This document shows positions 3,201 through 35,051 of a stretch of DNA of 37,394 bases, piece by piece. This DNA is from Spraguea lophii. Lineage: Eukaryota; Microsporidia; Spragueidae. Under the pieces are notes generated by a model that ran no database searches, was not told where the DNA came from, and saw nothing but the letters and a program-made list of their open reading frames with translations. Position 1 is the first letter of the stretch; each line of letters begins with the position of its first letter. The stretch lies in the NCBI GenBank assembly GCA_001887945.1, contig LDOQ01000022.1, positions 1 through 37,394 of the forward strand, written 5' to 3'. Made by a program: the position numbers and the translations under genes.

Positions 3201-3302
3201 AGTCCTGCTTGGCCCAGTGATCGTGGGGTGGTAACCAAACCCCAAACCTAGAGGGTTCGAATCCCTCATCCAGAAGAATTTTCAAAATAAAAAAATAATA
3301 TA

Positions 3303-3400
3303 GGGTTTCCCGTTTTTTTTAACAATTTTCCATTTATTTTAATAAAATAAGAAAATTAACTTTTTGATATGAAAATTTCCCGTTCATTTTAATAAATAAT
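3303..3400 (+). repeat. left terminal inverted repeat of the mariner-like element
   Basis: Matches the reverse complement of 4516-4610. It contains two copies of a TTTCCCGTT...ATTTTAATAAA unit (from about 3307 and about 3376), possibly tandem transposase-binding sites. Confidence 0.85.
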
Positions 3401-3489
3401 ATTTTTATTTTCTAAAGACTTCAAAAAACTTTTTAAAAATGTAAAAAAGATATACATTATAAAGTAAAATATATAAACATAAGACTTTA

Positions 3490-4453
3490 TTATACAATGA
3501 GTGTATTCAAAATGAAACACAAAATCCTATTATTCCAAATAATTCGATTAACAGAAAAAATAAAATTATTCCAAATGAACTTAAAAAGAGTGTTATTTCT
3601 ATGAAAAATCAAGGATATTCGGGAAAAGCTATTAGGAGGGCATTAGGCATAAAAACGCCCACCATATATAGTATTTTAAGAATATATAAAAGTGAAAAAA
3701 ATAATTGAAAAGAAAATAGCTGGTGGTTGTAAACCTACAAATTAGATGAAAATCAAAAAGAAAGTTTAATATCAAGAGTAAGAGAATCTGTAACAATTAC
3801 ATTGAAAGAACTTCTTAGATATATGAGTGACACCCATAATATTAGTGTTGGAAAGTCCATTATAGATCGTACTCTAGAATCATTTTGTTTTACTTTAAAA
3901 AGAGTTTTTATAATACCGGAAAGAAGAAATAATGAAACTACAATTATTAAAAGGGAGGAATTTGCAAGAAATTACTTTAATAAAATATTAGAAATTGATG
4001 ATAAAAACTTTATTTTTATAGATGAGGTATGCTTTAGTGTATCAATGAGGAATAAACATGGTAGATTCCCCGAGGGTATACCTGCTAATATTGCAACATC
4101 GAATATAAGAACGAAAAACATATCAGTAATAGCTTCGGTGAATAGATACCAAAAAATAGACTTTCACGTTAATCATGACCCAGTAAATGGTATTAATTTC
4201 AAAGAATATATTTTAAGATTTATAAGAAAATATTGTGAAATTAAAATTATTATTCGAGAAACAAAATATAGAAACTTGATATCTTCCACCATATTCTCCA
4301 CAATTAAATATTATTAAAAATTGTTTTAGTAAATTGAAGAATTATGTTGCACGACAAGAACCAAACAATGAAATTGAACTAAATACCTATATTGAAATGG
4401 GATTTTGTGAAATTACAGAAGAAGACTTAGGTAACTATTACGGAAGTTTTTAA
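3490..4453 (+). pseudogene. broken IS630/Tc1-mariner DDE transposase
   Basis: The frames must be pieced together. About 3500-3706 encodes a helix-turn-helix start (SMKNQGYSGKAIRRALGI) and ends at a TGA. The longest open piece is 3802-4317, with the first catalytic block FIDEVCFSVSMRNKHGR. A frame change near 4285 leads to LPPYSPQLN and NCFSKLKNYVARQEP, ending with TAA at 4453. The second catalytic Asp block ('DNa..H') is missing, consistent with an internal deletion. The final acidic residue expected in 'LNPIE' is replaced (LNIIK). The enzyme is therefore inactive. Confidence 0.8.
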
Positions 4454-4515
4454 GAGTATTGATATGTGCCAACAAAAAATACCTTTAATAAATTAAATTT
4501 TATTTTAAAATATTT

Positions 4516-4610
4516 TTTTATTAAAATGAATGAGAAATTCTCATATCAAAAAGTTAATTTTCTTATTTTATTAAAATAAATGGAAAATTGTTAAAAAAAA
4601 CGGGAAACCC
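4516..4610 (-). repeat. right terminal inverted repeat of the mariner-like element
   Basis: Reverse complement of the left repeat at 3303-3400. The outer ~68 bases match exactly by eye; the inner part has a few changes, such as GAGAATTTCTC against GAAAATTTCCC. Confidence 0.85.
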
Positions 4611-5007
4611 TATAATAATAAAAGACAGAGAGAAGAAAAAAGTTATTGAGTGGGTGAGGGTTCGATGGCGCTGCATTAGCCGTGCCTTGTATAACAGTCC
4701 CATTACTAGATTAAAGTAGTGTTTAGCTGATGTAGTTGTAATCCCTGTATTGATTTGTGACTCGGCCAATATTATGTAATGAAAAGGCTGGGAATTTCTT
4801 AAGAGTTGGAAGGGGGCGGTGACGTGCATCAGACGCAAAATCCTAGCACTCTGGAGCATAAGGTAAGATGAGATTAATGCATATCTGTAGCGAAACCAGT
4901 TAGTACAAACTTAGATATGCTTGAGTAACCGAAGGTCACAGACAATGGCAAGCCGCAACTGACTAGGGAACTTTGATAAATAAAAGTTTCATTAATAATA
5001 AAAAATA

Positions 5008-5092
5008 ACAGTTATTGATGAATGTAAATTTAAAAGGAATGGAAAAATGTTATTGGTAGTATTTGTACGAAAAGCTAAAAAATATAATTAAA
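5008..5092 (+). pseudogene. possible Merlin transposase fragment
   Basis: A short open stretch reads VIDECKFKRNGKM, then RKAKK, resembling the first catalytic block of Merlin-type transposases ('VeIDEs.FgKRKYnrG'). It is only ~28 codons long and directly follows SINE copy A. Chance resemblance is possible. Confidence 0.25.
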
Positions 5093-5203
5093 TTTTATTT
5101 ATTTTCTTCATGTTGTTTTATATTATTTTATAGGAGTCTTATATATAGCTTTTAGTAAAATTAATTTTTAATTAACAAATAAAACACTGTTAAAAAGATT
5201 TAA

Positions 5204-5806
5204 TTATCCATTTAAGGTACTTCTTTCTTGAATTCTCCTATCAGAGTTTTTAAGAGCATCTACTAACCATTCAAATGCAGGTACTAATCTTTCTAATGGG
5301 TCAGGACTTTGTGGTGTATCGACAGCTGCAACATGGAATACTTTCCATGTAATCCTATATTTTTCTATATCTAATTCTCTTACCATGTTTTCTATATCAG
5401 ATTCTAAATTTTCATCATTAGGATCATCTGCTTTATTTGCAAGTATCAATACAACCTTATTATCACAACCTTTTATAATATTTTCTAATTCTTTTCCAGC
5501 TATTCCCCATCTTTCTCTATCTTTTATGTCTACAACATAAATTAATCCAGCAGCAGAATCTACATAATTCTTCCACAATGGTCTTATATTTTCTTGTCCA
5601 CCTATGTCCCACACATTGAATGTTATTCCTCCCATTTGGAATTGTTCTACATTGAATCCTATTGTAGGTATTGTCGAGACTGTATTGTTACACTTAATCT
5701 GGTACAAAATGGTGGTTTTTCCGGCAGCATCTAATCCTAACATAGACACCTCATACTGCCTATTTGTTGCAAATAACTTTTGTAATCTTGATATCAGTGC
5801 ACCCAT
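5204..5806 (-). CDS. ARF: ARF-family small GTPase
   Basis: A 200-aa ADP-ribosylation factor, a regulator of vesicle budding on Golgi or endosomal membranes. Visible motifs are Gly2 for N-myristoylation, P-loop GLDAAGKT (24-31), switch I TIPTIGFN with Thr48, switch II WDIGGQ (66-71), and NKAD (124-127) in place of the usual NKQD. The 'IRPLW' sequence after switch II is typical of ARF rather than ARL proteins. It is about 20 residues longer than typical ARFs (~181), mostly from an insertion after the G5 region (AAVDTPQSPDP) and a polar tail. The start is supported by a GGGG run at 5813-5816 on the coding strand, seven bases before the ATG. Confidence 0.95.
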   Translation of the reverse strand: MGALISRLQKLFATNRQYEVSMLGLDAAGKTTILYQIKCNNTVSTIPTIGFNVEQFQMGGITFNVWDIGGQENIRPLWKNYVDSAAGLIYVVDIKDRERWGIAGKELENIIKGCDNKVVLILANKADDPNDENLESDIENMVRELDIEKYRITWKVFHVAAVDTPQSPDPLERLVPAFEWLVDALKNSDRRIQERSTLNG

Positions 5807-5812
5807 ACTTAA

Positions 5813-5816
5813 CCCC
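5813..5816 (-). promoter_or_regulatory. GGG-type start-proximal motif of the ARF gene
   Basis: On the coding strand this reads GGGG within GGTTAGGGGTTAAGT-ATG. CCC/GGG motifs just upstream of start codons are a known feature of microsporidian genes. Confidence 0.55.
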
Positions 5817-5991
5817 TAACCAATATTTTAATTTAAATATTTTTGTATATAAAATTTTGTTTTGATAATTTTGTAACAAAAAATTATTTCAAGCCAATTT
5901 TTAGCAAATAAAAATTTATTTATATTTTAAATTCACCTCGATAAAATTATTTATAAGTTTTAAGAAAATATTTGTTTTAGAATTTTACATT

Positions 5992-6741
5992 TTAAAAGTT
6001 AATTTTTCTTCGTTTTCTTTTTCTTTCTGGTTCTTTGGATTTTTCCACAGCTTCTTCCATTTCACCACTATCACTAGTTTCTACTTCAATATATTCTATT
6101 TTGGTTGGTGGATTCTCTTCAGTTGTTATCCACGGAGGAAGTTCATTAGGAAGTAAGCCAAGTGCTTCCTTTAATTGTTGAGATATTTCACCTTTTTTTA
6201 TTTTTTGTCGTATATCGAAAGTATAATTAACTACAAGCTTCTCTTTAAAAACATTAATTAAATCTTCATTTTTTATTTTTTGTTCCATTTTAGGATAAAG
6301 TTTTTCTTTAACTTTCTTTTTAATGTCTTTTTCTCTAATTTCTTCTCGTAATTTATACAATTGTAATTTTTTAATATTTTCTAGTAAAACAAAAGATGGT
6401 TTTTGATATTTTCTTCCTTTTAAATATTTTTTAGAAGATTCCCAGTGATCAGGAACAGAAACGGTTCCCATTCCCTTTAAAGTATTGTAAATAATAGGAT
6501 ATTTACAAGAAACATCTTCATGTTTCAATAATTCAGGATGTGGTACAACTTTTTTTAATTCAAAAAACTGTTGTAATTTTTTTTGTTGTTTTCTTTCTTT
6601 TTTATTCTTTCCTTCAATATTTTTTTCTATTTGTAGATATTCTTTAAACTTATCGAGATCTTCTATATGTTCTAGAATCTCACTTTCCCGGTTTTTATTA
6701 GCTGTAGAATAAAAACTATCTTTTTCAATTTTTTTTGTCAT
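5992..6741 (-). CDS. SF3B2: splicing factor 3b subunit 2 (SF3B2/Cus1), reduced
   Basis: A 249-aa version of the U2 snRNP protein SF3B2 (SAP145, yeast Cus1), which helps the SF3b complex hold the branch-point duplex. The DUF382-type region lies at about 55-165: FFELKKVVPHPELLKHEDV, then VPDHWESSKKYLKGRK (family 'VPRHWCFKRKYLQGKRG') and KPSFVLLENI. A PSP-like segment around 190-210 reads LKEALGLLPNELPPWI (family 'LGMP....PPPWL'). The C-terminus is acidic and then basic (KRKRRKINF). It lacks the long N-terminal extensions of animal homologues. CCC touches the ATG (6742-6744). Its presence fits the intron found in the MCM gene. Confidence 0.92.
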   Translation of the reverse strand: MTKKIEKDSFYSTANKNRESEILEHIEDLDKFKEYLQIEKNIEGKNKKERKQQKKLQQFFELKKVVPHPELLKHEDVSCKYPIIYNTLKGMGTVSVPDHWESSKKYLKGRKYQKPSFVLLENIKKLQLYKLREEIREKDIKKKVKEKLYPKMEQKIKNEDLINVFKEKLVVNYTFDIRQKIKKGEISQQLKEALGLLPNELPPWITTEENPPTKIEYIEVETSDSGEMEEAVEKSKEPERKRKRRKINF

Positions 6742-7052
6742 GGGATTAGAGTTTTATCATACAAATAATTTTAAAAAAATAATTAATAAATTCAGAATAT
6801 CATAACACATTCATTATTAAACTATATTCTAAAACCAATAAAATTATTTATCCATCATACTACTCTATTTAAACAATGTAAATATATATTTAGTTTTTAC
6901 CTACCATAGGAATATCGTAGATAATTTTTATAGACCAACAGTAAATATTTTTGTTTAAAATCTATAAATTATTTTTTGAGGAAGAGTTGTTATGAAAAAA
7001 ACAAAGAATAATAGAATATTTACTAATTTTATCTGTTATAAAATGAGTTTTT
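6742..7052. other. intergenic, divergent promoter region
   Basis: AT-rich spacer between the SF3B2 start and the plus-strand ORF at 7053. The only signal I see is the CCC beside the SF3B2 start. Confidence 0.5.
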
Positions 7053-7535
7053 ATGAGTTTAAAAAATTTTCTCATAACAATATATGGTAGGAATCTTTGT
7101 ATTTATTATTGCGGTGGTATTGTATTAACTATTATAATAACGGGCGGTGTTATGATGAGTCGAAAATCATCTAATGATAAAACCATGCCAAATAATAAAA
7201 TTATACATAAAATGCCTATAAATACTCCTAATAATAATGAAAGAAATTTAAATATGCCAGACGGCAGAAAACCCAATTAGGAAAGACTACAAACCAAAAA
7301 CCAGTCTCCTAAAGTAGATTCTCGTGGAGAATTGAACTCCAGACCCGTCGGATTAGATAAAGAAACAATTAAAATGGTCGAGGAAAAAATCCCTAAAGGA
7401 AATCCCAAACCCAAAAGTAAGAGTAATAATATAGAAAATAAAGAAAACACAGACAAAACAAAGCACAACCATGGTAAACATAGATCAAAAGATAAGGAAA
7501 AGGATGATGAAATAAACCATAAGGAAGAGCAATAA
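7053..7535 (+). pseudogene. small membrane-anchored low-complexity protein, one in-frame TAG
   Basis: One reading frame runs from ATG at 7053 to TAA at 7535 and is interrupted only by TAG at 7278-7280. The first part (75 codons) has a hydrophobic segment at about residues 16-34 (IYYCGGIVLTIIITGGVMM), then Asn/Pro-rich sequence. After the TAG the same frame stays open for another 84 codons of Lys/Asn/Glu/His-rich sequence ending NHKEEQ. Continuity of frame and composition suggests one ~160-codon gene with a nonsense mutation, a sequencing error, or readthrough. Alternatively the 75-aa product is complete. I do not recognise the family, and no start-proximal CCC/GGG is present. Confidence 0.4.
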
Positions 7536-7696
7536 GAATAGAATTATTTAATAAACCAAGGAAAACATAAATTCTGCAAAAAACAAAAAAGTAAACGAGG
7601 TAATGGAAAACTTAAGAAAAAAAAGAAAGGTCTTGCGCTGGGAAGAGAATGATTCATAACAAACGGTAACATTAAAATATTTATTTAAAGCCATTT

Positions 7697-9295
7697 TTAA
7701 ACAATATCACTTAAATACACATACTCAATGTTTTCATTGTCCGATGTTTTACCATCTACAAATTCACTTGGGATAGCTTCTGTTAACCCATTCAATTCAT
7801 CTTCTTTAATATTTTTTTCGACATTTAAAGCCTTTAAAAATCTATCATAAAAATCGATTTCTTGATTCTTCTTTACTTGCGTTTTATTCAATCCCTTGTA
7901 TTTATTCTTCGAAATTTCATCTGCTAATTTTTGCTGCAAAAATGTTTTCGCGAGTAATTTTAATATTTTGTTTTTTTGATCACTGACATCTGATGTTGGC
8001 GTAGCAAAAGGTATATCGAAACATTCATCTATAACTTTGTTGTTGATCTCAGGCTCAGTTGAATAAATATTTTTAAATATATATTTGTTGATGTCTTTAG
8101 GTTCATCTTCCTCGGGTAACCTTACATTGAGAGTTGGCTCTATCTGTTCATTTAATACTGGAGATTTTTGTTTCGAAGGTTGTGTTCCAATAGAAAAAAC
8201 TGGGATATGTGATGAAATGTCTATAGATTTGTCGTTATTTGTATTATCGATTGTAGAAGGTATGAATATTATGTTTGGCGTATAGATATATGTTGTATGC
8301 CCATTTATGCTTGTGCTGTTTAACTGATTTCCAATAGCATTAAATATTATTTCAACATTCCTTTTTAAATCTTCCGACTTTCCCTGTGGAATTATATTTG
8401 AATCCATTTTAACTTTTCTTGAACATGAAATAGTAGAGTTTGCAGGTTCGGTAATAGTTTTTGATACCGTTATAGTTTTCATTATACTGGAAAAGTTGGG
8501 TGGTTTTGGTGTAGACTTTATGTTGTCCGTCTCACTTTGATTAATATATTTAGATAAATTACTTTTTTTTGATTTGGGATTATCATCATTTGAAGGATAA
8601 TACATATATGGATATTGCTGATTAAAAGAAAAATAGGGACTAAATGGCTGCGCATTGTAATAATTTTGAAAATAAGGGTTAGAATACGGTGTAAAGTTCG
8701 GAATATATGGACTATTATACATATATGGGTGGTGACTGGGACTTTTGTTGTCGAATTTAGTATACTGATTAATTATAGGATTTTTAGAAGATTGCCTCGG
8801 TTGCGTATTGGATTTTCTGCCCAGGTTTGCAAGAACTACATTATCAGGTTTTATCTTTTTTTGTAAAATATCATATATTTTACCTATTTCATCTTTCAAT
8901 GTATCATAAGAGCTATCTGCACCAAAATATTGTGTATTTGTTAAATGAATAGGTTTTACAAATTCTACTGTAGGTTTTTTATTGTTATTATTGTTTTTAG
9001 GCATCATCATAGAATTTACAGGAATAGTTGAAGGTGGGATCTTTATCTTATTCATTTGAGGTGCTTCTGTATTATTATAATTTTTTGGTTTTACTTGAAC
9101 TACATTGTTTTTATCCATATTTATATTTTTTTGTATTACATATTTTGTTCCTGGTTTCTCATTTGCATTATCATACGTTATTGGTAGATATTTTTTTAAT
9201 TGTAATTTTCTTTGACATTCCAGATCACAGTAAGGCAGCTGAACTATATGTCCACCCAAAGTACCAACCAAATAAAAATAGATGGGCCAATTCAT
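7697..9295 (-). CDS. predicted secreted Asn/Pro/Tyr-rich protein
   Basis: A 532-aa ORF with no family I recognise. The N-terminus (MNWPIYFYLVGTLGGHIV) is short, hydrophobic and signal-peptide-like, followed by a Cys pair (PYCDLEC). Residues ~100-106 are an Asn run. Residues ~189-233 are very rich in Tyr, Pro, Phe and Asn (for example YMYNSPYIPNFTPYSNPYF). The C-terminal third is mixed charged and probably folded, ending YLSDIV. This is compatible with a spore-wall, polar-tube or host-exposed protein, but that is inference. Base composition is less AT-extreme than its neighbours, as expected for real coding sequence. It converges with the ORF at 7053-7535. Confidence 0.75.
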   Translation of the reverse strand: MNWPIYFYLVGTLGGHIVQLPYCDLECQRKLQLKKYLPITYDNANEKPGTKYVIQKNINMDKNNVVQVKPKNYNNTEAPQMNKIKIPPSTIPVNSMMMPKNNNNNKKPTVEFVKPIHLTNTQYFGADSSYDTLKDEIGKIYDILQKKIKPDNVVLANLGRKSNTQPRQSSKNPIINQYTKFDNKSPSHHPYMYNSPYIPNFTPYSNPYFQNYYNAQPFSPYFSFNQQYPYMYYPSNDDNPKSKKSNLSKYINQSETDNIKSTPKPPNFSSIMKTITVSKTITEPANSTISCSRKVKMDSNIIPQGKSEDLKRNVEIIFNAIGNQLNSTSINGHTTYIYTPNIIFIPSTIDNTNNDKSIDISSHIPVFSIGTQPSKQKSPVLNEQIEPTLNVRLPEEDEPKDINKYIFKNIYSTEPEINNKVIDECFDIPFATPTSDVSDQKNKILKLLAKTFLQQKLADEISKNKYKGLNKTQVKKNQEIDFYDRFLKALNVEKNIKEDELNGLTEAIPSEFVDGKTSDNENIEYVYLSDIV

Positions 9296-9499
9296 TTAAT
9301 TGTCGAGGTGATCTTTCATAAAAACCAAAGTTTCAAAAAAATCAAAACACAAAAATATCTTTGTGGCATCTAAAGTGGTTTCAAAAGAAATAATTTATTA
9401 AGATTTAAAAAAACAACTTTAACTTTAGCCGATTATCTTGTTTGAATACGATTAACAATTATCACTCTTCCAAACAAAAAAAAATTTACATTCCTAAGA

Positions 9500-9934
9500 T
9501 TAATCACTAACATCAAACCAAGATTTTAAAATTGCAAATTTTTTTCTGTTAGGTGGATTATACCATATTTTCTTAACAACAGGTGATATTTCTTTTATTT
9601 TTTTTGTTGTATTTTCTAAACTTGATTTAGAAATTATAAATTTATATTCAAATAATTTATTATTATCCAATTTCTGTTTCTTTGTAATATCTATCAAAAG
9701 CTTAACACTGTAGATTCTACCACAGACTGCCTCTTTTTCTTCAATTGTATGTTTCTTACAAAGAATGCTATGAATACACTTTTTATCGTTGTCCATTACG
9801 CCACAATACTCATCTATACTTCTGGATTTTAATTTTTTTTTATTTTCTTGAATTAAATTTACATAACAATCATGCTTTTTCCTATTTTTATGACTCAAAA
9901 TAATATTACAAAATTTGCACTTTAAGATTTTCAT
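9500..9934 (-). CDS. Sgf73/ataxin-7-like SCA7 zinc-finger protein
   Basis: A 144-aa protein. The start at 9934 (MKILKCKFC) is chosen over an upstream ATG at 9952 because the GGCCC motif (9940-9944) lies between the two, just before this start. Residues ~6-23 form a small zinc-finger-like start (C-x2-C...H-x-C). Residues ~42-65 (YCGVMDNDKKCIHSILCKKH) match the SCA7 domain pattern 'CGV....+.C.RsL.CK.H' with Cys44, Cys53, Cys59 and His62. In yeast and animals this domain belongs to Sgf73/ataxin-7, which anchors the SAGA deubiquitinase module. At this length it is a minimal version. It lies 45 bases downstream of the V-ATPase D gene on the same strand. Confidence 0.7.
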   Translation of the reverse strand: MKILKCKFCNIILSHKNRKKHDCYVNLIQENKKKLKSRSIDEYCGVMDNDKKCIHSILCKKHTIEEKEAVCGRIYSVKLLIDITKKQKLDNNKLFEYKFIISKSSLENTTKKIKEISPVVKKIWYNPPNRKKFAILKSWFDVSD

Positions 9935-11196: not shown

Positions 11197-11652
11197 CCCG
11201 ATTAGTCCAATAGTCGTAAGATGGTAACCAGATTTTAAGCCACCTGGTTCGAATTCTCTATCTAGAGTAATTTTCAAAAAAAATAATAAATAACAAAAGA
11301 AAAAATTATTGAGGGGATGGGGTGCAACAGTGCAACATTGGTTATACTTTGTATGATGCCATTATTAGACCAAAATAGTGTTGGCTTGTATAACTGCAAT
11401 TCTTGTCTTGATTTGTAATTCTGCCAATATTATATTAAAAAAAGAGGTGAAGATTTTCATTAGGGATGACAAAATGATGATTATACCATACGCAAAATCT
11501 TAAAACTTTAGAGCATAAGGAAAGATGAGATTAATGCATATCTACAGCAAAAAGGTGATACAAGTTTAAACATACTTTAAGAACCAAAGGTCATAGATCG
11601 CAATCGGCCGTAGCTACCAGGAACCTTATATATATATAAATTTTATTTTTAA
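11197..11652 (+). mobile_element. tRNA-derived SINE, copy B (degenerate, near full length)
   Basis: The head GCCCGATTAGTCCAATAGTC with the B-box-like GGTTCGAATTC at about 11247 is followed by the same body order as copy A: GGTTATACTTTGTATGA, CTGCCAATATTAT, GAGCATAAGGAAAGATGAG and GATTAATGCATATCTACAG. The A box has decayed and many C-to-T type changes have accumulated, so this is an older copy. It ends in ATATATAAATTTTATTTT. Confidence 0.75.
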
Positions 11653-11670
11653 AAACAATATTTTTTTTTA

Positions 11671-12150
11671 CGAATGAAACTTTTATTTATCAAAGCTTCC
11701 TGGCCGGTTGCGGCCTACCATGGTCTGTGACCTTCGGGTCCTCGAGCGAATCTAGGCTTGTACTAACTGGTTTCGCTACAGATATGCATTAATCTCATCT
11801 TACCTTATGCTCCAGAGTGTTAGGATTTTGCGTATGGTGCGCGTCGCCGCCCCCACTTCCAGCTCTTAAGGAATTCCCAGCCTCTTTCGTTGCATAGTAT
11901 TGGCCGAGTCACTAATCAATACAGGGATTGCAACTACATCAGCTAAACACTACTTTAATCTAGTAGCGGGGCCGTCATACAAGGCACAGTTATGCTGCGC
12001 TATCGAAACCTCACCCACTCAAGAACCTTTTTCTTCTCTTCTCCGTTTATTATTATTCTTTTTTTGTTTTGAAATTTTTTCTGGATGAAGGATTCGAACC
12101 CGCCAGGCTTGGGGTTTGGTTACCACCCCACGACCACTGGGCCAGGCGGG
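11671..12150 (-). mobile_element. tRNA-derived SINE, copy C (full length, best preserved)
   Basis: About 480 bases. On the minus strand it starts CCCGCCTGGCCCAGTGGTCG (A box), has the B box GGGTTCGAATCC about 50 bases on, then an A-rich linker, a ~330-base body and the tail ATAAATAAAAGTTTCATT. It is close to copy A throughout. It is tail to tail with copy B, 18 bases apart. ORFs of 62 and 76 codons overlapping it on the plus strand are repeat sequence, not genes. Its GC content is above its surroundings. Confidence 0.85.
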
Positions 12151-12604
12151 ATTTTTAAAAACATATTTTTAACAAAATATTTCCCCAAAATAAATCATAT
12201 AGGAAACGTGTTTAATGTTTCGAAGAGTAAACTGATTAATAAATCAAAGTCTGAAAATATACAGATTCGAAAAAATACATTCTTTCAGTTATTGAAGAGT
12301 TTAATAAGGATTTAAATACTTTTTCAAAAATTTAATAGTGTATGAAGTAGATTAATATAGTGGAATATTGAATCAAAGTTATTAAAATAATTTATCTGAT
12401 TTTTTTATCACTACTTACCAATTTTTTTATTTTTTAAATTTATATTTAAATTTATGTGAATACTCCAATAAAAAAATAAAAGCTTCCTAAATGTTTTATT
12501 TTAAGTCAAAATTCAATAGATCTATATTTAATTTTATATCAAAGTAAAACATTATCACTTTTGTTTGATAAATTGTTTTGAAAATATTTCAGCTATAAAT
12601 TTTT
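12151..12604. other. intergenic, upstream of aminopeptidase P
   Basis: AT-rich spacer between SINE C and the aminopeptidase gene. No ORF or repeat that I can support. Confidence 0.5.
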
Positions 12605-16850: not shown

Positions 16851-17313
16851 TAAATAAAATTTTTATTTATAGAAGTTTCCTGATTAGTCGGCGATTACCA
16901 TGGCCTATGGTCTTTGTCTCCTAAAACGCATCTAAACCTGTATTAACTGGTTTGCTACATATATGCTTTAATCCCCTTTCATTTTATGCTCAAATGCGTT
17001 GGGGTTTTGTGTATAATCACGTAACTGCTTTTTCAGTTTTTTAAAGATTCCCAATTTCTTCCATAGCATAATATGGCGGAGTCACAAATCAACACAGGGA
17101 TTGCAATTGTACCATTTAAATACTATTCTAATCTAGTAGTAAGTTTGTCGTATAAAACACGGCTAATGCTACGCTATCGATCCTTCAGTCGCTCAACTAC
17201 ATTTCTCTTTTGTTTTTATTATTTATTTATTTTTTGAAAAATTTTACGGGATGAGGGATTCGAACCCGGGCCTGGGATCTGGTTACCACTTCACGACCAC
17301 TGGACCAAGCGGG
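16851..17313 (-). mobile_element. tRNA-derived SINE, copy D, between the SulP paralogues
   Basis: On the minus strand the head reads ACCCGCTTGGTCCAGTGGTC (A box) and CGGGTTCGAATCCCTC (B box with an intact T stem). The body keeps the family order (CACAAATCAACACAGGGATTG on the plus strand) and the tail lies at about 16851-16875. It is moderately diverged from copies A and C. It lies between the two tandem transporter genes, so the insertion is probably younger than the duplication or was tolerated in the spacer. Confidence 0.82.
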
Positions 17314-22312: not shown

Positions 22313-22336
22313 CGCTTCCAGCCGGACTCGAACCGG

Positions 22337-22369
<33 letters not shown>

Positions 22370-22386
22370 TATTACGCCATGGAAGC
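22313..22386 (-). tRNA. tRNA-Asn (anticodon GTT), copy 2
   Basis: All 74 bases are identical to the tRNA at 3118-3191, in the opposite orientation. On its own strand it is followed by a run of T (22306-22312 read as A on the plus strand), the Pol III stop. It lies between the divergent MCM9-like and CDK genes. Flanks are unrelated to those of copy 1. Confidence 0.96.
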
Positions 22387-23421: not shown

Positions 23422-25922
23422 TTTACATTTTTATTCTACCCCTTAACAGAAAGTCAAGAGTAATATATTATATGAAGCTCAGTTACATCTGTTCTACAAA
23501 CATCTGGAAACTTTTCTAGAACATTTTCTCATAAATAAAAATTTATTATTTAAAATATTCTCTCTTTCTTTCAACTCTTTTTAAAAAATTATTTATATCA
23601 TAAATATAAAATATTATTTTATAACATTAAATACACAGTTATTCTTTTAATATGATATAACTATTTTTGTTTCAAGATAAACCTCTGTTAATGTATAAAA
23701 ATAATTATGTATTCGAAAAATTTTTTATTTCTAATGAGAATGAAAAAAAAAATATTTTTATTTTTTATTAAATAAATCTGAAAACTATTTTTTTGAGTAA
23801 TTTTTTAATGAAATAGAACTTAAATAGTTGTTTCAGTTTTTGTTTTGATTTATATTATTTATAAAAAAAAATATGTTACAATTAGCCACAAATGATAACA
23901 TCTGAATTATATTTTGATAATTAATAAAACCCGTGGATGCTTTATTTTCATCTTTCGATACGTTTATTTATATATTATTATAACATCGTTAAGAATATAT
24001 ATGAAAGATACTTTTTAAAGATATTTTCATTTTTTTGTTTTTAAAAGTATTTTTCTATTGAATTTTTTAATACCTGGTTATAAGAAATTTATTATTAATA
24101 TAAATTTCCTCTTGTCACATTTAAACCCATTTGATTCGTCATTATATTTTTATAATTAAATATCTTATATTATTGTATCAAATCCAATATATATTTTTTA
24201 TTGTAGTTATATTTATTTCCATTATTTTATATCAAATTTTCTTGAATATATTGAATTATAATATAAAATTTAGGTTATCAATAATAACATGTTATTTTAT
24301 ATCAAAAATATTATTTTTATGTTATAAAAATATAACATGTATTTATTTGAACGTATCTTGATTAATGTGTTATATTTTGATATAATCTTAATAGACATTA
24401 CTGTTCTTTTAATTTAATATCGTCAATTCGTTAAAATTTATTCACATTTTTAATTATAAAACTAAATTATAATCAAAATTTTTGATTGATCCATCTCACA
24501 TGATCTGATAATACTTTAAAATTATAATTTTTAAAGTACTTTTATCTGTACAAATTTATTGGCAAGTTCAGCCTACCATAATTTATAATATTTAATTAGG
24601 TCAGGCTAGGTCAAGACTTGTTAAATGTTATATAATATGTATTAACACAATAACAATTTCTGATTTAGAGTTTCATGATGCATATCACTACCGCCTTTCT
24701 ATTGATGTCTGATCCTTAACCTAATTCGTTGTATAATATTAGTTTAATCAATACAAAACCCGTTGACAGAGTCGAATAAGAAGTTACCTATTTTATAATG
24801 AGGTTACATAGAAATACTTAATATTAGGCCATTGTCATCTTATTAATTTTGTTTTCAAAAGAATTAGAAATTACAATTTCAAGATATTTTTCAAATCGGA
24901 CGATTATTGAATTACGAATTCCTTCTAAATATATATATATGTTTATATAGTATAGTTCAATTACTTATGTACATTATTTTCATCATAGTTTATATTCTAA
25001 AGAATTTGTTATTTACTAAAATTCACACCATTGCTATTTTATAAATTTTACTGGAATATAATTTCATTCGTGATATAATGGTTACCAATTTGCATGGAAA
25101 TGAAAGGATTGTAATACAAAAGATAATGAGTATTTATTATAAAACGGCATATCATATAATACAAAACTATTTACTTATAAAATCTCCATTCAGCCATTTT
25201 TTATTTTTGTTTTTTTTCCTAGAAATTTAAACACATATTCTATGAATTTTCCATAAATCCATACACTTATCTATGTCGTATTGAACTGTAAATTAAAAAC
25301 TTTATCTATTTTTTATTAAAAATTAAAGGAATAAAAAGATCTTTTAAATAACTGATAGAAAATATTAGAATGTTTAAAAAAATAGATGAATTTTAAAGGT
25401 ATTTTCCAAAAAAAATATGTTTGAAATATTGAATATTACAGAATGTTTAATTAATAATAGTTAATTTAATAAAATAATATGTATTAAATATATATGGTAT
25501 ATTGTTAAAATAAGAAATATATAATTACATAAACTATAAAAGGCTTATTAACCATAAACTAAAAAATATTTTTTATTTTATTTAATTAATATCTCAAGAA
25601 AAAGAAAAATATTTTTTTTACAATATAAAATATTTTTTAAACCTATGATTCTAATATTTATTTTACAAAAATTATTTTTAATATGTTATTTATATGATTT
25701 TTTGATATTAAAGTCAATAAAAATCTCATCGTTTAAAAATTATCACTATTTTTGTCACCTATTCCTTAAGTAGAAGAATTATAAAATTATTATTTTATTT
25801 TAAAAAATAAGGTTAATATTCTATATTTCATTTAAATGTATCACGTTTGTATTACATCTATTGATCAATTTTTGTTTTATGATAAAAACTAAAACGATGA
25901 TCAAGCCCTAAATAGTTAATAA
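23422..25922. other. 2.5 kb gene-poor, very AT-rich region
   Basis: I find no supported gene here. A 76-codon ORF (24131-24361) is Ile/Tyr/Phe-rich, as random AT-rich sequence would give, and lacks a start motif. The only recognisable content is a decayed SINE at about 24533-24760. Confidence 0.5.
24533..24760 (-). mobile_element. tRNA-derived SINE, copy H (old relic)
   Basis: Weak but ordered similarity to the minus-strand copies: an ACTTTTATCTG tail, TTGGCAAGTTCAGCCTACCAT (family GGCCGGTTGCGGCCTACCAT), ATGATGCATATCACTACCGCC and TTCGTTGTATAATATTAG...AATCAATACAAAA. The head is lost. About a third or more of positions look changed, so it is the oldest copy seen. Confidence 0.45.
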
Positions 25923-27715: not shown

Positions 27716-27903
27716 ATGCTTAACTGAGTGATCGTGGGATGGCAACCAAATACCAAGTCTGGGGTTCGAATTCCTTTTCAATAAGAATTAAAAAAAGAAA
27801 GAAAGATAGACCTAAAGAAAAAAAGGATGTTGAGGGAAGGAGGATTCGATAACGTACCATTGGCTATGCCGTGTACGACTGCCCTCCTATTATATTAATG
27901 GAT
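27716..27903 (+). mobile_element. tRNA-derived SINE, copy G (5' part only)
   Basis: The head TGCTTAACTGAGTGATCGTGG and the B-box-like GGTTCGAATTCC are followed by the linker and AGGATTCGATAACGTACC...GCTATGCCGTGTACGAC. Similarity stops at about 27900, about 185 bases in, where the Merlin-like region begins. The rest of the SINE is missing. It may have been cut by the Merlin insertion, but I could not recognise the other half downstream with confidence. Confidence 0.65.
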
Positions 27904-28720: not shown

Positions 28721-29487
28721 TGGCTTTATTTTCTTTTAAAACCACTCTTTTATCTACCTGAGAGTTAAATAGATTTTTTACCGAAAAATCTAGCTAACTT
28801 CGTTTCAAAATAATATCTTGATTGGAAAATTACAACGGCCTAACAACAAAACATTTTATTTGGAGTGTTGGATCTTAAGAATAGGATTCCACCAAAAATT
28901 AAATTTAAAAATATTCTGTTCTCTAAACAAATTATATATTACCTGCTGAATCATTAATCTATATAATATCTCTTTATTGTGTCGGCCAAACGTTATTCTT
29001 ATTAAACAACAAAATTATATACAACCACATAATATTACGTCTTTTATATTGAAAAAAATAAACTAATACTTTCAAATCTACTGATTATTAAAGTTTAATT
29101 CCAACCCTGTTTTGTAGACTATCAAGTATCTGTTTTTAAAACAATATACCTGGTGTTATTATCATATATTTAAATATTTTATATTCTAAATTGGCCATAA
29201 TCTTTTTAGAGATTCTCAATTAATATATCTTTATAAAATTTTCCAAAACATTGTATTATTTTTTGAATAATTTACATAATAGCAATTTTGTGTTGTTTTC
29301 ACAAATATATTTTAAAAATATTATATGTTTATTTTCAATAAATAAAGATTAAAAAAAGTTTCAAATCAAAATAATATAGAAATAGTAAATAAAATATATA
29401 TATTATTTCAATAATATTTAATCATCTTGTATATTTTGTATGAAATTTTTTAAATTAATTTTTATAAACAAATCTATTTTCAGGGGT
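28721..29487. other. intergenic, upstream of RPN10
   Basis: AT-rich sequence with no supported gene. The frame at 29440-29487 is open into RPN10 but lies upstream of the start motif and is taken as leader. Confidence 0.5.
29483..29486 (+). promoter_or_regulatory. GGG-type motif fixing the RPN10 start
   Basis: GGGG one base before the ATG at 29488; it selects this start over the ATG at 29440. Confidence 0.55.
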
Positions 29488-30129
29488 ATGCCAGAAGTAA
29501 TAGTTATAATCTTAGATAATTCCATTTCTATGTGTAATCAGGATTATTTTCCAAATCGATATGTTTTACAAATAGAGACACTTAGAAAACTTATAGATAA
29601 TAAGTATTCAAGTTCTCAACTGAATGAAATTAGTATTATACCATTAGCTCAACCAACACCACATTTCATTGCTACCCCGACTAAAAATCTATCATTTTTA
29701 GAATATTTCATATCCAAAATTCCGTTGAATAGAAATTTAGATTTAAAGAGTACTTTTTTCCTTGCTTCAAAAGCTTTGGATAGCAAAGAAAACAAATATG
29801 GCACATTAGTCTTTTGTATGGGAACGCTATTACCGCCAGATATGGTTGATGAACAAATCATGTCAGCAGTAGAGCGTATTAAAACCATGCTAGATAAAGA
29901 AGTGCTTGTAAAAATTATATTCTTAGCGGAGGCTAAGGAATATAAGGAATTATTCGATGTTCAATTAGAACATCCTAATTATTCCTCTGTTTATATCTCA
30001 CCTGAAGATGATTTTGGAGCAATTGTGGCAGATATTACTGAACAAGATGATTGGGAGGAAAACGATCCAGAATTAGCCATGGCTATAAAATTATCATTGG
30101 AAGAAACAAATAAGAAACAGGACAATTAA
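29488..30129 (+). CDS. RPN10: 26S proteasome ubiquitin receptor RPN10 (PSMD4)
   Basis: A 213-aa RPN10. The ATG at 29488 is chosen because GGGG (29483-29486) lies one base before it and MPEVIVIILDNS aligns with the family N-terminus ('MV.E.t.vcvDNSe.M'); the ATG at 29440 would add 16 residues with no counterpart. The VWA domain fills ~1-180, with DNSIS (10-14) at the metal-site position, and docks on the proteasome regulatory particle. One ubiquitin-interacting motif near the end (DPELAMAIKLSLEE, ~193-206) has the acidic-Ala-x3-Ser pattern. It converges with the TCP10-like gene; the stops are 24 bases apart. Confidence 0.93.
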   Translation: MPEVIVIILDNSISMCNQDYFPNRYVLQIETLRKLIDNKYSSSQLNEISIIPLAQPTPHFIATPTKNLSFLEYFISKIPLNRNLDLKSTFFLASKALDSKENKYGTLVFCMGTLLPPDMVDEQIMSAVERIKTMLDKEVLVKIIFLAEAKEYKELFDVQLEHPNYSSVYISPEDDFGAIVADITEQDDWEENDPELAMAIKLSLEETNKKQDN

Positions 30130-30153
30130 AATCTTTTAAATGTTTTTTAATTT

Positions 30154-30555
30154 TTATTTAAGATATTCATATTCTTTATTCCCAGTTCTTACTCCTATTG
30201 TTCCATCTGGATATCTTATTTCTTTGATACCCACTGGATAACTTTTTTCTACTTGCCCATTAGGAAATTCATATGTAATTATTTTTGTTTTTACATCGTA
30301 AAGATATCTGTATTTATTATTCCTATCAACTACGTATGTAGAACCATCGGCTAAATGATATCTTGTTTTTGACGTTCTTTTTTCTGTATGAACGATACTC
30401 TTTCCATCTATTAATTCTTTATATTCTTTGTTGAGCTTTTTTAGTTTAGTTATTTCTTCTTTAAGAATATCTATTAAACTAACGCCAGGTTTGTTTTCCA
30501 TCTGCATAAAAAGAGAATTTATTAAATCTATCTTTTCATTGATGTTACGTTCCAT
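30154..30555 (-). CDS. small TCP10/SAS-4 (CPAP) C-terminal G-box-like protein
   Basis: A 133-aa protein. The start at 30555 (MERNINEKIDLINSLF) is preferred because CCC (30557-30559) lies one base before it; an ATG nine codons upstream is outside the motif. The first ~60 residues form a probable coiled coil (ILKEEITKLKKLNKEYKELI). The second half has repeated short beta strands of the form 'pdGs...': YHLADGSTYVVDRNN, YEFPNGQVEKSYP, IRYPDGTIGVRTG. This is the pattern of the TCP10 C-terminal domain (G-box) of SAS-4/CPAP, which binds STIL/Ana2 in centriole assembly. Microsporidia have spindle plaques and no centrioles, so a spindle-pole role is speculation. Upstream it faces CCT3 across a 173-base divergent promoter. 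Confidence 0.72.
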   Translation of the reverse strand: MERNINEKIDLINSLFMQMENKPGVSLIDILKEEITKLKKLNKEYKELIDGKSIVHTEKRTSKTRYHLADGSTYVVDRNNKYRYLYDVKTKIITYEFPNGQVEKSYPVGIKEIRYPDGTIGVRTGNKEYEYLK

Positions 30556-30556
30556 A

Positions 30557-30559
30557 GGG
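30557..30559 (-). promoter_or_regulatory. CCC-type motif at the TCP10-like gene start
   Basis: Reads CCC on the minus strand, one base before the ATG at 30555. It argues for this start over the longer frame from 30582. Confidence 0.5.
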
Positions 30560-30728
30560 TCAAAATAATAAAATATAATCAATGCAAAATTTTATCATCC
30601 AATACAATATTAAAAACAAATATAAATGAGATTGACAATTATTGGTAAGGTACATTGGATTTATCATCATTTTTTTAGAAAAGCAAAGAAATAAGATATA
30701 ATTTTTTTAAAATTTTAAATTTCACCCC

Positions 30729-32297
30729 ATGTCTTCACAACAACAACCAATGAGTTATATAATTTTAGTGAAAGATCAGGCTTTACGGATACAACAAGAA
30801 AATGTTGAAGCTCTTAATATGATATCTTCTATTATAAGTTCATGTTTAGGTCCTTTGTCTCTTCAGAAACTAGTTCTTACAAAAATCGGTTCCTTGGAAA
30901 TTACAAACGATGGTCATTCAATATTAAGGGAATTAGATGTAACACACCCTGCTGCAAAAAGCATAGTAGAGCTTGCTCGAACACAAGATGATGAAGTAGG
31001 AGATGGTACTACATCTGTAATAATTCTGGCTGCAGCAATTATGCGTAGAATGAGTAAATTGCTTTTAAAAAAATATCATCCTATAAAAATTTGTTCTGTT
31101 TTGAGTAGAGCTCTAAAATACGCTGTTAAATGTATGAATGATAATGGTGTAGAAATTAAAAATGAGGAGTTTATACACAGAATAGTTGCAGGAAGTGTTT
31201 CTACTAAAATTTGTAGTATTTTAGGAATAGATATAGCATCATTGGCTATAAAAGCAGTTGATATAGTTTATGATGACTTACTTGTAAAGAAAGTTGATAT
31301 TAAAAGCTTAGCTAAGGTTGAAAAGATTTTTACACCAGGATATTCAGGATCTGAAGTATTAAATGGGGTTATTATAAATAAAACATTAATACATCCTCAA
31401 ATGAGAAAAAGAATAGAAAATCCAAGAATATTAATAATAGATACTCCATTAGAATACAAGAAAGGAGAAAGTCAAACAAATTATGAATTCCACAACGAAA
31501 AAGATTTTACAAGAGCATTAAAAATCGAAGAAGAACAAATAGAAGAAATGTGTAAGAAAATTATAGAAATGAAACCTGATATGGTTGTCACTGAAAAAGG
31601 AATTTGTGATTATGCTATCTCTTTATTCTATCAGAATAATATTACTGCATTAAGACGATTTAAAAAGACCGAAACTCTTAGACTTAGTAAGTGTACTGGT
31701 GGATTGATAGGAAGTAGAACAGAGGATCTTACCGAAAGGAATATTGGGACTGAGTGTTCCTTATTCGAATATGAAAAAATCGGCGATGAATACTATTGCA
31801 AATTTATTTCAAAATCACCCAAAGCATGTTCTGTTTTACTCAAAGGACCATCAAGAGATATCATCAACGAATTAGAAAGAAATTTCTACGATGCAGTTAA
31901 GGTAGCAAAAAATATAAAACTTTCACCAAAAATGTGTGTGGGTGGTGGTGCAACAGAAATGTATGTTGCAAACGAATTAAAAAAAAGTAACGAATTTATT
32001 TCTTCATTTGAAAAAGAAGTTGTATTTGAAATTGCAGAAGCTATAAAAATAATACCCTCAACATTGGCAAAAAATAGTGGTGTCTTTGATCCATTAGCTT
32101 TGATGGCAGAATTGGAGGATAAACATATGTCCGATAGTTTTTATGGAATTGATGGAGTAAAAGGTGTAGTAGCCGATATGAGAGAAATTATTGTAGAACC
32201 AATTGCTATAAAAATACAGTGTTTGAAAAGTGCAATAGAAGCAGTTATTTTATTATTAAGAGTTGATGGTATCATTCAAAGTAGAAAGAATAAATAA
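30729..32297 (+). CDS. CCT3: chaperonin CCT/TRiC subunit gamma
   Basis: A 522-aa group II chaperonin subunit, part of the eight-membered ring that folds actin, tubulin and other cytosolic proteins. The ATP site GDGTTS (91-96) follows RTQDDEV, and TNDGHSILRELDVTHPAAKS is present. The gamma identity is shown by LEYKKGESQTNYEF, DFTRALKIEEEQIEEMC, DMVVTEKGICDYA and KIGDEYYCKF, which match CCT3 and not other subunits. The C-terminal part has GGGATEMYVA, VIDMRE-like VVADMREIIVEP and a final 'LRVDGIIQS'. CCCC (30725-30728) abuts the ATG. Length is close to the usual ~545. Confidence 0.97.
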   Translation: MSSQQQPMSYIILVKDQALRIQQENVEALNMISSIISSCLGPLSLQKLVLTKIGSLEITNDGHSILRELDVTHPAAKSIVELARTQDDEVGDGTTSVIILAAAIMRRMSKLLLKKYHPIKICSVLSRALKYAVKCMNDNGVEIKNEEFIHRIVAGSVSTKICSILGIDIASLAIKAVDIVYDDLLVKKVDIKSLAKVEKIFTPGYSGSEVLNGVIINKTLIHPQMRKRIENPRILIIDTPLEYKKGESQTNYEFHNEKDFTRALKIEEEQIEEMCKKIIEMKPDMVVTEKGICDYAISLFYQNNITALRRFKKTETLRLSKCTGGLIGSRTEDLTERNIGTECSLFEYEKIGDEYYCKFISKSPKACSVLLKGPSRDIINELERNFYDAVKVAKNIKLSPKMCVGGGATEMYVANELKKSNEFISSFEKEVVFEIAEAIKIIPSTLAKNSGVFDPLALMAELEDKHMSDSFYGIDGVKGVVADMREIIVEPIAIKIQCLKSAIEAVILLLRVDGIIQSRKNK

Positions 32298-32930
32298 ACT
32301 TTATTTTATTATTGAATTTAAAATTAATATTTTTTCTCATTCATTAGGTTTTTAACGAAACTTTTATTTATAGAAATTTCCTAATTGGTTGCGACTTATC
32401 ATGGTCTATGACTTTGGTTTCTAAAACACATTTAAACTTGTACTAACTGTTTTTGTTACAGATATGCATTAATCTCATTTTACTTTATGTTTCAGAACAT
32501 TAGGATTTCGCGTATGATGCAAGAGAAAATAAGGACAGTGTGATTATTAACATAATGTTGTTGTTTTTTTATTTTTATAAATGATGTTGTTTAAAAATGG
32601 AAATGTATTGGTTTATTTACACCCATTTTTAGTAAATTTCTATGATTTTTAACGCAAAGATTTTATATTTATATATCTGCAAATAATATTGACACTTCAA
32701 TGACATTTATGATATGATTGTTATTAATGTGGAATTTTAACTAATTTGGAATATATGAAGTTTTTATTTTATGTTTATACTTAGTGTATTATATATACTA
32801 TTATTTTTTTAAAAAAAAGGAACATCGTTTAAAAAGAAGAAAATATTATGTTTAACTTTTTTGAGAAATATTAACTTAAACGTCAAAACTTATATAAAAA
32901 CTATATATATATACATTAATATTATTCCTT
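32298..32930. other. intergenic with a SINE fragment
   Basis: Apart from the 3' SINE piece at 32352-32521, AT-rich spacer with nothing I can name. Confidence 0.5.
32352..32521 (-). mobile_element. tRNA-derived SINE, copy E (3' end only)
   Basis: From the tail (AACGAAACTTTTATTTATAG on the plus strand) through TTGGTTGCGACTTATCATGGTC and GATATGCATTAATCTCATTT to CGCGTATGATGC. It covers only the last ~170 bases of the element and stops abruptly, like a 5'-truncated retroposition product. Confidence 0.78.
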
Positions 32931-34166
32931 ATGGATTTATTCATTAATAATAATACAAAACTTTTTAAACATTCAACCGTAAGTAAACATATGCTTTTAA
33001 ATACAAAGAAAAATATCAAATATATTTTAAAAGCATCGTTCTTATCGACAATAATGTTATTATGCTTGAAGTTGTTAAATTATACATTCATTCCAACTCC
33101 ATATGCCAAATGTATTTTTACAGATAAACAAAGAATAGAAGATTTATACAATAATCATGATTCCTCAATTACAAATTTAAATTTTAGTAGAGACGATGAA
33201 ATATATTTGGGTTATCTAGGTTTTAATTTACATGTTGACTATATGTTACCAGATTCTTTAAACAGACCAGAACTATTAGAATTGTTTAAGGAATATTGCG
33301 AAATTGTTAAATATCCAGCCGATGAACTTTCCCAGTATGAAAATGCTATAAATGAATCTGTTATTATAGAAAAATTATTGGAAAATCTTATAAATTATTT
33401 TGCCAAATATCATGAAATTTTATCTTCGAAAATAAAGTATATATATAATATAATTAAAGAGTATCACGGAGGGCATGATAGGATCGGAGATCCAAACAGA
33501 ATAACAATAGAAGATTTTTATTATCCAGCGACACCAACCTGTCGTTTTATATTTGAAAAGTTTTGTGAAGAGCTGGATAAATACATTGTACCAATATCTA
33601 TTTTACTTCAGAAAATAGAAACTACAAAAATATATACACAAATATTAGGATACGAACTTATAAAAGTTAAAGCATATTCAAACATAGGAAGTGTTCCACA
33701 TCTACATAATAGTCTAGAAATGAGTATCAAAAATACGTTAATAAAAGTAACACAAATATTAACAAAGATTGCAGCTCTTTCGCTCGATATGCAATCTAAA
33801 CACTTCGGATTCCGACCGTTTCAAAATTATTTCTCACTTTTGAACGTTCATTTTTCTATATTACGCGTAAAAGATGTCCTTCTTTGTTTTTATTTGAATA
33901 ATGGAGCTCCTAAATTCGAACCAATGTTAAGAAATTATAAGTTTTCTAACCTAAACTCATTTCTTGAATATAATATATACGACATGTATGAAAGTATAAA
34001 AAATATTTTTAGTTTATCTGATAAGATTGACGACGAATTTAAGAAGAGAATCATTAACAAAATAGTAAAAATATTTTCAAAAACATCTGTTAATACAATA
34101 AATATGTATTCGTTAGATGATATAAAATCAATAGTTAATATATTTGTGGATGTAGATGATTTGTAG
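32931..34166 (+). CDS. hypothetical protein with an N-terminal membrane anchor
   Basis: A 411-aa ORF with no family I recognise. After a basic, polar start (to ~residue 33), a hydrophobic stretch at ~34-53 (ASFLSTIMLLCLKLLNYTF) suggests a signal anchor, so most of the protein would be lumenal or extracellular. The rest is mainly helical with a central FYYPATPTCRFIFEKFCEEL and a conserved-looking HFGFRPFQNYFSLLNVHF. A C-terminal DDIKSIVNIFVDVDD is acidic. It could be a secreted or type II membrane protein peculiar to the lineage. No CCC/GGG is close to the start. Confidence 0.72.
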   Translation: MDLFINNNTKLFKHSTVSKHMLLNTKKNIKYILKASFLSTIMLLCLKLLNYTFIPTPYAKCIFTDKQRIEDLYNNHDSSITNLNFSRDDEIYLGYLGFNLHVDYMLPDSLNRPELLELFKEYCEIVKYPADELSQYENAINESVIIEKLLENLINYFAKYHEILSSKIKYIYNIIKEYHGGHDRIGDPNRITIEDFYYPATPTCRFIFEKFCEELDKYIVPISILLQKIETTKIYTQILGYELIKVKAYSNIGSVPHLHNSLEMSIKNTLIKVTQILTKIAALSLDMQSKHFGFRPFQNYFSLLNVHFSILRVKDVLLCFYLNNGAPKFEPMLRNYKFSNLNSFLEYNIYDMYESIKNIFSLSDKIDDEFKKRIINKIVKIFSKTSVNTINMYSLDDIKSIVNIFVDVDDL

Positions 34167-35051
34167 TTGGTGATGTAAAAAGAAAGAACAACGTTTTTAT
34201 ATTTAATTCCTGAATGTTAAATACATAAAAAATGTTAACTTTCTATTTTTTAAGTGGAATTTTATTTATTAAAATTCTTTTTAATTAACCACAATACAAG
34301 ATATTATGAGATTATTAAATTTTATAACAAAATTAATAATATATTAATTTGTTTAACGTGAAAATTATAGGATTTTTTTATTAATGAAACTTTTATTTAT
34401 AGAAGTTTTATATCCGATTGCGACCCATCATGCCCCATGTCCTTCGGTTCCTAAAACACATTTAAACCTGTATTAACTGATTTCACTACAGATATGTATT
34501 AATTTCATCTCATCCCATGCTCCAGGGTGTTATCCTTTTGTGTGTGATGCACGTCACCGTCTTTATAGTCTTTTAAAGGTTTTCAACTTCTTTTTTGATA
34601 TAATATCGACCAAATCAGTATTCAATATATGAATCGTAACTATGTCAACTAAATACTATCTTGATTTGATAGACAAAGAAATAGAATAAGATATGGTTGA
34701 GTTTCAATGTTTAAATATTTTCGATCATTCCATATTTTATACGATAACACTTTGCTTTGAAAATTATTCCAAATAAGTAATTCAAGCTCTGGAATTTTAG
34801 TATTGGATTATTATCTCAAAAAATTTAATTAAACGTCATAATTAAAAGAATATGGATAATACCTAATCCGTAAGAAAAAAATAGAAAATAGAATAAGAAT
34901 GTTTTTATTTTCATACAATATTAGAAATATATAAATATACATATTAAAGAAAACAGATGGTAAATTGTAAAGAAGAGGAAAGATTTGGTGATGATAATAT
35001 GAATTTTAAGTAGATATATATCTAGACAACAAAAATAAACATAACGTCCTC
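34167..35051. other. intergenic between the hypothetical gene and the right repeat arm
   Basis: Holds a partial SINE (34382-34672). The remaining AT-rich sequence shows no gene. Confidence 0.5.
34382..34672 (-). mobile_element. tRNA-derived SINE, copy F (3' part)
   Basis: Tail TAATGAAACTTTTATTTATAG, then GATTGCGACCCATCATGCCC, CCTTCGGTTCC, GATATGTATTAATTTCATC, GATGCACGTCACCGTC and a diverged CAACTAAATACTATCTTGAT. It covers about the last 290 bases; the head with the Pol III promoter is missing. Confidence 0.78.

Follow-up and report, generated by a model that had tools for sequence, protein, structure and literature searches.

Copies of the element in the window

The window analysed here, 37,394 nucleotides long, is an entire contig (LDOQ01000022.1, here C40) of the assembly of the microsporidian Spraguea lophii (GCA_001887945.1; 5,273,041 bases in 73 contigs). 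It contains eight copies or relics of a non-coding element of about 480 bp, which is dispersed as copies with unrelated flanks, as in a short interspersed element (SINE; about 80-700 bp). We regard the element, with high confidence, as a tRNA-like SINE family that has been active recently and probably still is. In the following sections, we describe the copies in the window and the marks of insertion in the assembly, and then weigh the origin of the element.

An earlier note, made from the letters of the window alone, had named the eight copies A to H, and all of them are present (Table 1). With copy C as the query, A (in two pieces), B, D, E, F and G are recovered at their claimed places, with E-values from 2e-17 (G, the weakest) to 2e-88 (the second piece of A). 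The match of H to copy C alone is weak (58% identity, E 0.003, 32 bits; the best match in ten dinucleotide shuffles of the window has 29 bits, E 0.21 for that larger set). H is recovered by a profile of 30 copies from which H itself was excluded, within the E 0.001 limit of the scan.

The window also documents insertions into older copies. Copy A is split, as the earlier note has it. A Tc1/mariner-like element of 1.3 kb cuts it in the linker, with TA at each side, inverted repeats of about 111 bp (94.6% identity) and a DDE_3 domain in a 164-aa frame (3823-4317). Copy C is inserted at the tail of copy B, between the two 13-bp halves of a target-site duplication. Of E and F, which the earlier note described as headless, 5'-truncated copies, E is short at its 5' end, but a target-site duplication was looked for in its flanks and not found; F retains a degenerate head. 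In the profile alignment, G is the opposite of a 5' truncation, with the head kept and the 3' part missing. The 3' end motif proposed as common to all copies needs extension: young copies run on past it with CG, T and an A tail, and older copies are variable at this end.

Table 1. Copies of the SINE and associated features in the window ("model" and "profile" positions refer to the 30-copy profile)
Feature	Position	Strand	Remarks
Copy A, 5' part	3202..3300	+	tRNA-like head (A box, B box) and linker; profile match from 3207
Tc1/mariner-like element inside copy A	3301..4612	+	terminal inverted repeats, flanking TA, DDE_3
Copy A, remainder of linker, body, 3' end	4613..4995	+	query match and profile
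Copy B, full length, old	11197..11649	+	66-67% to C; no target-site duplication detected
Copy C target-site duplication, 3' side	11645..11657		
Copy C, full length, young, A tail	11658..12150	-	sits at tail of B
Copy C target-site duplication, 5' side	12151..12163		
Copy D, full length, old	16851..17313	-	71% to C; no target-site duplication detected
Relic H	24538..24754	-	profile positions 222-463, 16 bits
Relic G	27716..27903	+	head and start of body; 3' part gone; model 3-191
Relic E	32355..32521	-	3' third only; model 301-468
Copy F	34384..34818	-	nearly full length, degenerate head; model 19-468

Insertion marks, copy number and age

The target-site duplications that the earlier note proposed to look for are present, and they vary in length. 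Among the 26 copies scored that retain both ends (one more, lying at a stretch edge, was skipped), 14 reach a duplication score of at least 11, and 11 of the 12 youngest belong to these 14; 650 mismatched flank pairs gave a 99% point of 10 and a maximum of 13. The duplications are 11-17 bp long overall and 12-15 bp in these 11 youngest full-length copies, all of which carry an A tail, the length of which differs among copies. Since young copies have duplications and A tails of their own, they are not pieces of one larger protein-coding transposon, the outcome that the earlier note had set against its reading.

When 11 copies with short 5' ends were tested (one more was skipped at an edge), none reached p 0.05; two scored 9, at p 0.08. 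Two extreme truncations were picked among the matches listed, as tails without an exact core or a near-exact upstream sequence; the listings covered about 100 of the 212 core places (see below) and about 100 of 120 upstream places. One, on contig C4, consists of the last 28 nt of the element, with no mismatch and one extra base, and has a 16-bp duplication and an A tail. The other, on contig C9, consists of the last 54 nt, with 3 mismatches and four extra bases, and has a 12-bp duplication and an A tail. A profile search at E 1 reported the C4 piece and not the C9 piece. Pieces truncated at the 5' end inside duplications are a mark of target-primed reverse transcription. 5'-truncated copies with duplications exist, in places other than the pair named in the earlier note.

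The sole member of the youngest set without a duplication of its own (C1:142818-143297, minus strand) is a special case. Fifteen bases of its 5' flank recur as the 3' flank of the next copy (C1:143894-144261, plus strand, 5'-short), whose 5' flank in turn has 14 bases in common with the first copy's 3' flank (the last of these may be part of the element). The own flank pairs of both copies share 5-6 bases; among 2000 random flank pairs, nine reached 11 and none reached 14. Provided that the assembly is right, reciprocal recombination between the two inverted copies, turning the 594 bases between them, explains all four flanks.

The earlier note had also named a scarcity of further copies as a result contrary to its reading, and copies are in fact numerous. 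Genome-wide, a 30-base core has 212 matches with at most 3 mismatches (reversed control, 0), the exact 20-base tail of young copies has 95 (control, 0) and the exact 18-base tail of older copies has 64 (control, 1). The profile finds 30 copies or pieces in the initial 200 kb of contig C1, a stretch selected by its position in the contig list; they occupy 10,515 bp or 5.3%. Extrapolation gives about 790 copies or pieces in the assembly (about 530-1130 by the Poisson range on 30), and the true number is probably higher, because 7 of the 73 contigs break inside young copies. These contigs begin or end at an almost identical position of the element: in contigs C15, C25, C54, C56, C58 and C60 a young tail stops at position 116 or 117, and another lies 96 bases from the end of C9. 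Adjacent pairs of SINEs also occur. An exact core 33-mer has no match in viral contigs or in prokaryote genome contigs, which says little, as microsporidia are not expected in either.

The window itself ends differently. Positions 1-2249 and 35146-37394 form an inverted pair, 95% identical over 2249 bp and reaching both ends of the contig. Each holds a 650-aa open frame; a Pfam scan of the first found no family. A break of the contig within a multi-copy locus is probable. Among its other genes, the TCP1-gamma protein is at best 57% identical to that of Astathelohania contejeani, and in a tree of 31 rows (30 of them chosen from 120 listed) it groups with Vavraia, Pseudoloma and Dictyocoela (99/98).

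Copies of very different age are present. In the 12 youngest copies that were read, 2-13 of 486-488 sites depart from the majority, and 4 separate the closest pair. Kimura two-parameter distances between the young sequence and the 30 C1 pieces have a two-humped distribution, with 5 at 0.05 or less, 2 at about 0.14 and 23 at 0.21-0.46, where a subfamily difference accounts for part of the larger values. The young SINE has a GC content of 46.5%, against 23.0% in the 200 kb of C1. With the young sequence as reference, the per-site frequency of GC-to-AT changes is about fivefold that of AT-to-GC changes (0.325 and 0.062), a rough figure because the old copies do not descend from the young sequence. 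This excess fits a decay of the old copies toward the base composition of the genome.

Anatomy, probable helper element and rival explanations

The majority sequence of the 12 youngest copies comprises 488 bases including the start of the tail. It consists, in order, of the A box and the B box, an A-rich linker, a body of about 340 bases, the 3' end GAAGCTTTGATAAATAAAAGTTTCATTCGT and the A tail. The boxes of RNA polymerase III (Pol III) that the earlier note placed in a tRNA-like head are exact and lie at positions 9 and 53. The pattern used for the pair at tRNA-like spacing occurs 10 times in 237 kb, in eight SINEs and two tRNA-Asn genes, and we take the element to possess a putative internal Pol III promoter of this type. 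To judge by sequence, the head is tRNA-like: the best score of the young head against 23 of the 57 tRNA genes of the organism is 52.6 (maximum of 200 shuffles, 48.6), and that of an older head, written by eye from the column majority, is 58.6 (maximum of 200 shuffles, 47.8). The median score between tRNAs is 58.0, so that the young head lies below it and the older head about equals it. A derivation of the head from a tRNA, as the earlier note had it, is likely; the exact boxes and the similarity to tRNAs above shuffles speak for it, and two points given below do not.

No known RNA was recognised in the body, for which Rfam gives nothing above threshold. Two candidates at permissive limits were discarded: a tmRNA match of 10 bits covers the B box only, and another Rfam match (E 8.7) overlaps the end of one copy by just 9 bases. 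Six hairpins were named by hand from the young sequence. Over 21 copies, 72% of their cells are paired, compared with 32-48% for slid partners; shuffled partners average 70.5% and reach the observed value in 6 of 500 cases. The 3' hairpin is paired in 81% of cells over the 21 copies. Hairpin pairing lends weak support, because the structure was derived from one of the sequences. An avoidance of T runs, as a signature of Pol III, was not found in the element, in which T runs are not clearly avoided.

The enzymes for insertion would be those of a long interspersed element (LINE). The RVT_1 profile finds nine places in the genome, which comprise Ty3-like long terminal repeat (LTR) elements, a 1239-aa frame that we take for telomerase, LINE pieces and decayed pieces. 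The Ty3/gypsy-like polyprotein frames, at C73:40003, C48:16630 and C44:27834, are partly open and their loci have 29-30% GC. The best LINE is a 479-aa open frame (C72:3-1439) that matches Exo_endo_phos_2 and the start of RVT_1 at E 0.002 each, both below the curated cut-offs of Pfam; an apparent first part of the endonuclease lies upstream in another frame. Related pieces are decayed (C48, C1) or short (C21). The frame has 20 protein relatives at E 0.001, most of them without a name; among those with names are a nematode protein (28%) and a LINE protein of Smittium culicis (36%). Because it is the longest open LINE frame, the C72 LINE, a rare element, is the probable helper of the SINE, as far as the sequence allows a choice. 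Its locus (C72:1-1646) has 43.3% GC in a genome of 23% GC. Horizontal transfer of SINE and LINE from an animal host was considered in view of the GC contents of both; these are suggestive, and the old relics speak for a long residence.

Several observations count against the interpretation as an active tRNA-like SINE family. Neither ARAGORN nor Rfam calls a tRNA in the head, and no parent tRNA is found among the 23 of 57 tRNA genes compared (the 20 best-scoring ones outside the window, with about 1 kb on each side and one shorter, two in the window and one in C1:1-200000). TTTT, a possible Pol III terminator, is present in 10 of the 12 youngest copies, and in the majority sequence it lies within the linker; it also occurs in 796 of 1000 dinucleotide shuffles. 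Among the two-ended copies, 12 of 26 lack a significant duplication, 11 of them older and one the inversion case. The free energy of the element is not exceptional relative to shuffles (z -1.07), RNAalifold yields no common fold, and the helices beat shuffled partners modestly in pairing and not at all in the number of pair types (309 of 500 shuffles reach it). As for the helper, its frame is cut by the contig end, and the assembly lacks its 3' end. The earlier note suggested seeking a partner LINE with the 3' tail of the SINE. A LINE is present; among the matches listed, with 95 young tails checked, no LINE with the SINE tail was found. Two possible LINE tails, when read, were both truncated SINEs rather than LINE ends.

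The strongest of the rivals, itself very improbable, is a multi-copy non-coding RNA gene family that is occasionally reverse transcribed, so that a single functional gene would have given rise to the copies as retropseudogenes. Some helices persist despite changes on both sides, and the GC-rich young sequence in a GC-poor genome could reflect a function; no Rfam family scores above threshold, though, and no fold is more stable than shuffles. Moreover, the boxes are internal, so that copies carry their own promoter, and shared substitutions, judged by eye, group the 12 young copies, which suggests several sources. We give almost no credence to a non-autonomous DNA transposon, or miniature inverted-repeat transposable element, with box-like motifs that arose by chance. 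A DNA transposon has been active here, as the Tc1/mariner-like element in copy A attests, but the SINE has no terminal inverted repeats (the longest inverted match in a young copy is 11 bp, internal, at E 4.1), and duplications of variable length, variable A tails and one-sided 5' truncation are not those of such an element; the truncated copies with duplications contradict it. It is just as implausible that the copies belong, as termini or internal fragments, to a larger LINE or LTR element. Both kinds of element are present in the genome, but the individual duplications of two-ended young copies contradict this origin. Furthermore, among 54 flanks compared, long matches were spacers shared by neighbours or further SINEs, and the rest were at most 131 bp. 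The SINE itself has no convincing match to the LINE and LTR loci (E 0.14 or worse), except for one full copy inserted in the C48 LINE locus.

For the tRNA-like SINE, a life cycle can be proposed. Pol III would transcribe an RNA of about 480 nt from the internal A and B boxes, starting at GTCCCGCC. The LINE endonuclease and reverse transcriptase would then cut one strand at an AT-rich site and start cDNA synthesis from the 3' end of the RNA; in this model, that end consists of a hairpin, CATTCGT and the A tail. Insertion would leave the duplications of 11-17 bp, and an early stop of synthesis would leave 5'-truncated copies down to 28 nt, both of which the copies display. Old copies would go on to decay toward AT and be hit by other elements, as is seen here, and two copies may recombine and invert the DNA between them, as the swapped duplications indicate if the assembly is correct.

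Neighbouring tRNA genes, related systems and significance

An additional lead concerns the sites of insertion. In the tRNA sample defined above, a SINE lies within 250 bp of 8 of 46 tRNA ends, against 16 of 232 open-frame ends (Fisher p 0.038) and 8.2% of random intergenic sides. The corresponding counts are 3 of 46 and 2 of 232 within 30 bp (p 0.033), 5 of 46 and 6 of 232 within 100 bp (p 0.021), and 9 of 46 and 32 of 232 within 500 bp (p 0.36). All three cases within 30 bp are downstream and on the same strand, behind tRNA-Ala, tRNA-Asn and tRNA-Lys, where the profile match begins 8, 15 and 23 bp away (by eye, the element itself starts somewhat closer); random placement gives 1.2% per side within 30 bp, in either orientation. 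For example, copy A begins, by eye, 10 bp past the 3' end of a tRNA-Asn gene (3118-3191). This gene and a second tRNA-Asn(GTT) gene in the window (3118-3191, plus strand; 22313-22386, minus strand) have equal scores and match at 98% over 84 bp, and a SINE lies directly behind the first only.

A fourth candidate, on C43, lies about 27 bp from a tRNA, as inferred from the position of its tail. On C29, about 12 bp separate a degenerate tRNA-like stretch (1103-1173 of the stretch examined; 20 bits to RF00005) from the start of the SINE behind it. By eye, the C29 stretch resembles tRNA-Lys, and its junction looks like the tRNA-Lys/SINE junction on C47. All tRNA-adjacent cases are older copies, and both distance and orientation were chosen post hoc. 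Among 180 distinct places listed, 4 are within 250 bp of a tRNA, where uniform placement that ignores genes expects 1.9. It is therefore a possible but doubtful proposal that the SINE, by way of its LINE helper, favours sites 3' of Pol III genes, landing within or immediately behind tRNA terminators and in the orientation of the tRNA. If true, a compact parasite genome would harbour a SINE system that targets tRNA genes, in convergence with Dictyostelium TRE3. In the part of the source available, TRE3 is described as an autonomous LINE that is always found near tRNA genes and inserts about 100 bp downstream of them (PMC5006619). The two are alike in the compact genome, in a LINE with an APE-type endonuclease and in insertion downstream of tRNA genes; unlike TRE3, most of the SINE copies listed here are far from tRNAs (all but the 4 of 180 places), and the statistical lead is weak.

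The earlier note called descriptions of SINEs in microsporidia rare, and this fits the open-access literature, where titles and the beginnings of abstracts yielded no report of a microsporidian SINE; subscription journals and supplements lie outside this scope, and the repeat annotations in microsporidian genome papers include unclassified repeats. The whole words SINE and short interspersed do not occur in the portions of main text available for PMC4202319, PMC7313128, PMC13174016, PMC12449221 and PMC10542269. Likewise, in the available portions, PMC10790688 names a mosquito SINE as a target of the polymerase chain reaction, and PMC8232201 has microsporidia in its reference list only. Retroelements including LINEs and LTR elements are known from several microsporidia, according to parts of three of these papers (PMC4202319, PMC13174016, PMC12449221).

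Similar elements are described from Aspergillus fumigatus, whose SINEs, in the part of the source available, are 140-493 bp long with target-site duplications of 4-14 bp (PMC5063351). SINEs of the AfuSINE2 type resemble the present element in having a tRNA-related head, Pol III promoter features and an extended tRNA-unrelated region. AfuSINE2 is present in few copies, and one family is similar to a LINE-like sequence in that genome (PMC5063351). In contrast, the element described here has hundreds of copies, duplications of 11-17 bp and an A tail, and no related LINE sequence was found among the loci compared. It is apparently new for its phylum, with similar tRNA-related SINEs known in other fungi.

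The significance of the element lies in its setting. Microsporidia are a textbook case of genome reduction. A parasite assembly of about 5 Mb nevertheless carries a non-autonomous retroelement that makes up about 5% of a 200-kb sample and has copies that differ by less than 1%. Such a load implies that a LINE has carried out reverse transcription recently, and it speaks for a functioning Pol III-LINE economy in microsporidia. Young, nearly identical copies are also a reason for breaks in the assembly, as in 7 of 73 contigs. The family provides dated insertion markers and a clear case of an inversion between two SINE copies, and with it the insertion of retroelements near tRNA genes in compact genomes becomes testable in a new lineage.

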